Positions 45,561 to 46,909 of a stretch of DNA of 64,000 bases are shown here, one piece after another. Position 1 is the stretch's first letter. Each line of letters opens with the position of its first letter. Below the pieces are notes generated by a model. That model saw only the letters and a list, made by a program, of their open reading frames with translations. It was not told the DNA's origin and made no database searches. Both the position numbers and the translations under genes were made by a program. The DNA comes from a bacterium (GTDB taxonomy: Bacteria > Fidelibacterota > Marinisomatia > Marinisomatales > UBA1611): positions 62,001 through 126,000 of the forward strand of contig SGYO01000001.1 in assembly GCA_004321745.1 (NCBI GenBank). Direction: 5' to 3'.

Positions 45561-45587
45561 AGAAAAAGTTCCTTCAGCTTATGAAGG
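45561..45587 (-). terminator. Rho-independent terminator of the thioredoxin-like selenoprotein gene
   Basis: On the minus strand CCTTCA-TAAGC-TGAAGG forms a six-pair stem followed by AACTTTTTCTT. The stem includes the stop codon TAA in its loop, so termination would occur immediately at the gene end. Confidence 0.7.
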
Positions 45588-46826
45588 CTTTTTTATCCAA
45601 TCAGCATTATACATATCGACAAACGCAGGAGCTATGATACTAGTTTCTAAATTATTTGAAATTGTATAAAAAATACCAATATCCCCTTGATCAGGCCCTA
45701 GTTTCCTTCCATTATTTTGAGTCTTACCATACCACTTCCCTAAGATAACTAATTCAAACTCTATGAATTGATTAACCGTTTTATCAAATGTTGCACTTCC
45801 TAAAACTTGGGTTTTTATTCCATGATCTAACTTATGATTTGGAGTCCAATCATTCTCACCAAGTAACCATCCTCCTATTGCTACAGCATTAGCACTTCCA
45901 CTAATGCTAAAAGATAGCATGGATTTTGTAGAGCTTGTAACCTCTAAACTTAATTTTGAAAACTTAATTTCTTCTGGGGCAAAAGGTAAAGTTTGCCCTC
46001 TAACATTATCTACGAAATGAAACCTGAATAACCTTTCTTTTATTAATTCTGGACACTCCTGAATACTGCCGACAACTTGGTTTTTTGGAAGCCAAAGTAA
46101 AGCTTCCTCTTTATTAAACCATATGTGGTCCATATTCCACCTATCACCTCTGTTATCAAAATTTGGCGGGTCTGATAACAAATCAGACTTTGCTCCTTTT
46201 AATATCAAACCATCAACCGGATAGCTATCCTCCCAACGATGCTTAATTTTTTTGGTAAAATCTTCAGGGAGCGATTTTTGAGTTGCAGGAAGCATATCCC
46301 ATTTTTTTAAACCCTCTTTAATAATCTCTAAAACAACATCCGGATTAAGTGAATTAACTGAACTTAATAGTTGGCCGCTGGGACTCAGTACATATATACC
46401 TTGTCTAGAACCACCCTTTTTTCGATAGTGCCCCTTGTCTGCAATAGATTGAAACATCAAAGCATCTTCATCATTGGCGCCTTGTAAACGCCAAACTTCA
46501 TCTGTTGAAGCCACAAAATTTTTTGCGATGTCAATTACTCTCGAATCTGACCAAACAGACCTCCGGCCCGCTGCTCCGTTATTTCATGTGCACCCTAAAG
46601 GATGCCCATTCATAACCCATAAAAGAAGTGGTTTATTAAATTTATCTGCGTCAACTAGTCCATCATAGAAAGTAGTCCTCCAAGAGATTTGAGCCCATGC
46701 AAGCTCTTTCTCAGTAGGTTTAATAAAGTCTTTCCACATAGTGTAATTAATGCTTGTAAGAGAAAATTCCTTTTCATTACCTGAACAGCTTAAAAAAATT
46801 ATAATAATAAATAATATTTTATTCAA
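45579..46826 (-). CDS. Thioredoxin-like envelope protein, predicted selenoprotein (Sec81)
   Basis: A 415-residue protein if the TGA at 46584-46586 is read as selenocysteine. It starts with a lipoprotein-like signal (KILFIIIIFLSCSGN, Cys14). Residues about 40-190 look thioredoxin-like: a KPLLLWVMNGHPLGC-T-Sec segment gives a Cys79-x-Sec81 redox motif, followed by NNGAAGRRSVWSDSRV and SRQGIYVLSPSGQLL. The C-terminal about 220 residues (RWNMDHIWFNKEEALLWLP, NNGRKLGPDQGDIGIFY) are an unnamed domain. The frame is identical on both sides of the TGA (23 sense codons before the next ATG-like start), which argues against two genes. A SECIS-like hairpin follows. Substrate unknown; likely periplasmic redox role. 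Confidence 0.8.
46554..46572 (-). promoter_or_regulatory. Candidate bacterial SECIS element for the thioredoxin-like protein
   Basis: In the transcript, the eight bases starting AGCGGGCC pair with GGUCUGUU (with three G-U pairs) around a GGA loop. The loop begins 19 bases after the UGA and has G first. Stem length, distance and loop G meet the general bacterial SECIS pattern. Folded by eye. Confidence 0.65.
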
Positions 46827-46909
46827 TGAATACTCTTCTTATTTAAATCAAAATAGCTCATATTTTTAATATTATGTTAACTTATGTATAACTAAGCAAA
46901 GTAAAAATT

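Follow-up and report, generated by a model that had tools for sequence, protein, structure and literature searches.

Among the systems described so far, the fdhF SECIS of E. coli is a small hairpin with a GGUCU-type apical loop located shortly after the UGA, and AGR proteins have degenerate active sites. Redox enzymes make up the majority of selenoproteins (PMC13188914). Bacterial SECIS elements (bSECIS) follow rules that call for a loop of 3–9 nt with a G in the first two positions, a stem of 4–16 bp, a spacing of 16–37 nt from the UGA and a minimum free energy (MFE) of at most -7.5 (PMC13188914). A 2026 catalogue lists 119 families of prokaryotic selenoproteins, with CxU motifs in rhodanese form 3, the UshA-like proteins, ferredoxin-thioredoxin reductase and the PF13192 thioredoxin-like proteins. 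All new families of the 2008 marine survey have Cys homologs (PMC2398784). According to the deep-Sep paper, all known selenoproteins seem to have such homologs, and its method may filter out selenoproteins that lack them (PMC12013277).

Here we describe a gene that is very probably a genuine selenoprotein gene and the founder of a new family, which in the data searched is confined to one order of Neomarinimicrobiota. It is located in a 64-kb stretch of DNA (the window) from a member of this phylum.

Results

The gene occupies the minus strand from 46826 to 45579, where a single frame of 415 codons is broken solely by a TGA at codon 81 (46584–46586). It begins with a TTG at 46826, in a column conserved across the aligned relatives, and ends with a TAA (45579–45581). 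The purine-rich AAGAAGAG (46833–46840, minus strand), about 6 bases upstream of the TTG, is likely to be the ribosome-binding site. A preliminary description of this DNA had placed residues 1–80 and 82–415 in one frame at 45579–46826. Translation confirmed both frame and coordinates, and the strand, which had been left unstated, is minus. The default reading with table 11 yields two ORFs (46584–46826 and 45579–46514), and standard gene callers split the gene in this way. Elsewhere in the window TGA is the normal stop of 8 out of 46 long frames, which argues against a change of code. Translation and alignment point to a signal peptide (46785–46826, minus strand) with a lipobox-like end, FLSC, so that the product would be a lipoprotein lipidated on Cys14. 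The corresponding end reads LIGC, LAGC or FSC in relatives, 11 of the 12 sequences that have a residue in column 14 carry Cys there, and the start is hydrophobic by inspection.

Scanning 84,980 species genomes by pattern returned two close relatives, both from Candidatus Marinimicrobia and each with TGA at the equivalent codon. With whole-genome searches of 61 relatives, then of 245 genomes of the phylum, the gene was found in 14 genomes. Codon 81 is covered in 13 distinct Neomarinimicrobiota genomes (the copy studied here, L020–L028 and L067–L069; L020 and L023 correspond to the same contigs as L009 and L010). It is TGA in all 13, with an open frame on either side, HPLGCT before it and NNG after it (GNG once); no TAA, TAG or sense codon occupies this position in any of them. 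Most full-length pairs are 53–82% identical, and readthrough of codon 81 is far beyond chance. The preliminary description had proposed looking in homologs for cysteine or TGA at this position: cysteine was never seen, and every relative covering the codon has TGA. No Cys form was found among the genomes of the phylum or in weaker searches outside it (the pattern-based genome scan, viral contigs and plasmids). Because the searches outside the phylum are weak, this absence of Cys homologs, which ordinarily back the claim of a new selenoprotein, is provisional. Viral contigs, plasmids and a viral structure library contained no relative.

The fourteenth genome (G038) retains a C-terminal remnant only (L070/L029, G038:C15:86655–87062), without the thioredoxin domain. 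This genome is otherwise Sec-using, and the remnant is probably a decaying copy. Some protein identities between taxonomic families (88% for G057 versus G149, 84% for G005 versus a G045 fragment; L026/L067, L020/L028) exceed those found within families or genera, which suggests transfer between families or mis-binned contigs.

Residues ~20–180 (46287–46769, minus strand) are supported by structure prediction as a thioredoxin-fold domain of the AGR2/AGR3, ERp18 and DsbH group, bearing the active-site loop HPLGC79-T-U81-NNGxAGRR. Two AlphaFold models, one of the whole protein (pLDDT 75.8) and one of residues 20–185 (pLDDT 79.7), show the order beta-alpha-beta-alpha-beta-beta-alpha. This predicted domain spans the TGA, with a strand at residues 67–72 before it and helices at residues 86–101 after it. 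The best PDB matches obtained with Foldseek were human AGR3, AGR2, a Bacteroides thioredoxin domain, the UBXN7 UAS domain, ERp18 and DsbH, and the thioredoxin-fold matches 3ph9, 9i3u, 3f9u and 1sen had a probability of 1.00 (best E value 6.6e-5). The top sequence-profile match was also AGR3, at a non-significant E value of 0.17, and no thioredoxin profile of Pfam or NCBIfam matched. The earlier label of thioredoxin-like is thus right for the predicted fold, without recognition by any sequence profile. The large uncharacterised C-terminal domain announced at the same time was also recovered: residues ~181–415 (45582–46286, minus strand) form a region of about 235 residues that is beta-rich in the model and belongs to no recognised family. 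It has no sequence match in Pfam, NCBIfam or the PDB; hits to Pfam HMG_WDHD1 (E 0.02) and to Ler in the PDB (E 0.44) were treated as chance. Resemblances of the C-terminal half to avidin- or OmpA-like barrels in the full-length Foldseek search (E ~0.01–0.2, probability mostly ~0.1) were discarded.

Besides the lipobox cysteine, Cys79 and Sec81, within HPLGCTU, are the only Cys or Sec residues conserved throughout. The Cys79 codon (46590–46592, minus strand) is present in every readable row of the alignment, two residues before Sec81 as originally noted, and the active site is of CxU type (C79-T-U81), not of CxxC type at the start of the first helix. If residues are counted from the KPL strand and from the V91-W92 helix, the position of Sec81 would be close to that of the thioredoxin nucleophile, in a lengthened loop. 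This placement rests on sequence counting because the active-site loop is modelled with low confidence (pLDDT below 50). Sec81 might instead bind a metal or another ligand, with the thioredoxin fold serving as a scaffold as in AGR2-type chaperones. The best fold matches are indeed AGR proteins, and there is no Cys C-terminal to Sec as in UxxC motifs. However, the conserved Cys79 provides Sec81 with a partner two residues upstream, and most selenoproteins are redox enzymes (PMC13188914). We therefore consider a non-catalytic Sec81 unlikely and prefer a redox role for the CxU pair.

The preliminary description had not recognised the family as a described selenoprotein, a view that stands against both NCBIfam release 20 and the 2026 catalogue, to which the family is new. 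None of nine members had a plausible match in Pfam or NCBIfam release 20 at E values up to 1, and NCBIfam holds models for many of the catalogued selenoprotein families. No catalogue entry has a matching architecture, and we found no Marinimicrobia selenoprotein of this type in the literature. A thioredoxin fold and a redox CxU motif do occur among catalogued families, so that the protein could be a diverged member of one of them, for example Sec.1 with its CxU motif, GOS_A, GOS_B or GOS_C, or the TlpA-type thioredoxins. This is improbable given the failure of all nine members to match any family model, the 125–312 Cys homologs known for each of GOS_A, GOS_B and GOS_C, and a long C-terminal domain that the descriptions of those families do not include. 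A new family is thus the reading that we retain.

The nucleotides following the TGA are constrained beyond their coding role. Codons 85–93 (46548–46574, minus strand) show synonymous constraint with a mean z of 5.2 (window sd 0.7, codon usage as background), against ~1.9 in the next non-overlapping window and values near zero at codons 71–84. Gly87 is encoded by GGC in 13/13 sequences, Arg89 (the second Arg) always by NGG and Val91 always by GTY. Constraint of this kind is expected where a SECIS lies within coding sequence. The Ser93 codon (46548–46550, minus strand) is TCA in 11/13 sequences (z 9.4), and its third base falls immediately beyond the hairpin that we prefer.

Two overlapping hairpins can be drawn in this region. 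The preliminary description had reported an eight-pair stem with a GGA loop starting at the 12th base after the TGA (46554–46572, minus strand). This hairpin exists and dominates the predicted fold of the present sequence (MFE -12.0, z -1.42), but it is completely formed in only 6 of the 13 sequences. In 5 sequences there is a mismatch at the sole pair whose bases are both free third positions. It is the more stable of the two hairpins in 8/13 sequences; since 19 of 200 shuffled sequences are equally stable, its stability alone is not exceptional. The register conserved as the SECIS is probably a different one. A shifted hairpin, GGCCGGA-GGUCUG-UUUGGUC (46549–46568, minus strand), is better conserved, and we favour it as the candidate SECIS. 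In the present sequence it has 7 bp, the loop GGUCUG, a spacing of 22 nt between the UGA and the apical loop and an energy of -7.6 kcal/mol, and it satisfies the bSECIS rules for loop, stem, spacing and energy (PMC13188914). Across the family it takes the form GGCCGG-A/C, a GGUYY or similar loop and UUUGGUC, with energies that are weaker (-5 to -7) in some relatives. All seven pairs are present in 12/13 sequences, where the stem is free of bulges if codon 89 reads AGG and contains a bulged U if it reads CGG; in L021, a CGG to AGA change leaves a 5-pair version. No pair shows a compensatory two-sided change among the 13 sequences, and the consensus from RNAalifold tends towards the first register, for which reasons the shifted hairpin is put forward as a preference. 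Hairpins of selD genes in the same order also have GGU in or near the loop. Rfam SECIS_1 matched neither the genome studied here nor the control genomes.

The preliminary description had suggested looking for selA, selB, selC and selD. Intact selA (464 bits) and selB (349 bits) genes, both over the cut-off, are adjacent on contig C6 of the genome, whereas neither selC nor selD turned up in this 92%-complete draft. A selD match at C1:182105 was rejected as a purM-like gene, and the tRNA-Sec candidates were rejected as tRNA-Ser, Trp, Phe, Leu, Arg and Asn. Searches with the selC of G005 and an order-specific covariance model found no selC in this genome or in five sister drafts, for which we see no other explanation than incomplete assembly or an aberrant selC. 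Within the genus (G000–G006), selC is present in G005 only; selA is over the cut-off in the other six, and G005 has none. G005 carries the gene together with selC (copy L088) and a Sec-type selD. Over the 61 relatives, selA is over the cut-off in 54, selD was found in 49 and tRNA-Sec in 38, and ARAGORN assigned a UCA anticodon to the 20 tRNA-Sec examined. Nearly all selD genes of the relatives contain an in-frame TGA, which makes SelD itself a selenoprotein. The gene, selC and selD occur together in several genomes, e.g. G005, G009, G016, G021, G025 and G057. In L058 (G054:C50) and G060:C252, a selD match lies inside a frame of 737–748 residues without TGA, perhaps a fused Cys-type SelD, and these genomes have a separate TGA-containing selD alongside.

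The UGA could also be read through by near-cognate insertion of Trp or Cys, or by a reassigned code. The missing selC and selD of the draft would fit such readings, yet selA and selB are both intact, the rest of the window uses TGA as an ordinary stop, a SECIS-type constraint follows the codon, and relatives carrying the gene possess tRNA-Sec with a UCA anticodon and a Sec-type SelD. We hold them to be very improbable beside decoding as selenocysteine. It is hardly conceivable that the UGA is a true stop, producing an 80-residue peptide and a separate 311-residue protein from an internal GTG start, or that the gene is a decaying pseudogene: the two ORFs of table 11 and the remnant in G038 would agree with this, but 13 genomes, with identities as low as ~53%, retain the frame, the flanking residues and the TGA, the predicted thioredoxin domain extends across the TGA, and TAA or TAG never replaces it.

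In this genome the gene has a MacB/HlyD/TolC-like efflux operon and an amidase as its neighbours. Four relatives of the same family share other neighbours, namely a TonB-dependent receptor, GDSL lipases, and T9SS-sorted PNGase F-like and laminin-G proteins. Across the neighbourhoods compared, no single operon partner recurs in every one. All these neighbours belong to the envelope or are secreted, in keeping with an extracytoplasmic role. The window also encodes a bacterial protein matching the TMEM164 family PF14808 (48541–49236, minus strand, 132 bits), adjoining a DUF6702 gene. A TPP riboswitch over the gathering score (L030:819–917, 63.8 bits), about 6 kb from selA, overlaps the start of a long ORF for a TonB-receptor-like protein.

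Discussion

The reading of codon 81 as selenocysteine, first proposed as a candidate, is upheld by TGA in 13/13 genomes, codon constraint in the SECIS region, selA and selB in this genome, and selC with a Sec-type selD in relatives. We infer from the sequences that the actual protein contains selenocysteine. Decoding of the UGA would depend on SelA/SelB, tRNA-Sec and selenophosphate, and a hairpin of the coding sequence ~16–36 nt downstream would direct it. The product would probably reside in the envelope as a lipoprotein whose N-terminal domain has a thioredoxin fold of the AGR/ERp18/DsbH type. The nucleophile at the start of the thioredoxin helix is probably Sec81, and Cys79 probably resolves it as a Cys-Sec selenenylsulfide, which would place a CxU redox centre on the outer side of a membrane. 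The likely task of the beta-rich C-terminal domain is to bind the substrate or a partner.

The family would add to the selenoproteins an unusual CxU thioredoxin active site and a C-terminal domain without known family, in an uncultured marine phylum. It is possibly an exception to the rule that known selenoproteins have Cys homologs. With no Cys form found, and given the filtering acknowledged for deep-Sep, it falls in a blind spot of current annotation. Whether Sec is indispensable in this family is doubtful, although conceivable; if so, pipelines that demand a Cys homolog would miss Sec-only families of this kind.

Comparison with known systems places the protein apart from each of them. Like the present candidate SECIS, that of E. 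coli fdhF is a small hairpin with a GGUCU-type apical loop soon after the UGA, but the bulged U of the present gene, where found, is on the 3' side of the stem. AGR2/AGR3, ERp18 (TXNDC12) and the DsbH or Thioredoxin_7-type proteins share the predicted thioredoxin fold (TM to target 0.57–0.67 for the best matches) and a weak, non-significant sequence likeness before the active site, I-x-W-x-x-T-(5)-G-L ... K-P-L. They differ by a shorter loop than HPLGCTU-NNG, by CxxC or CxxS in place of CxU, and by the lack of the extra 235-residue beta-rich domain. Sec.1 (PF13192, PMC13188914) is likewise a thioredoxin-like selenoprotein with CxU, but its model does not match the present 415-residue putative lipoprotein. 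GOS_A, GOS_B and GOS_C are likewise marine and uncharacterised, and differ in their many Cys homologs (PMC2398784). The NCBIfam models for GOS_B and GOS_C do not match the present family, and GOS_A is set apart by description only. GOS_C comes near in its thioredoxin-like fold, yet its motif is UxxC, whereas that of the present protein is CxU.
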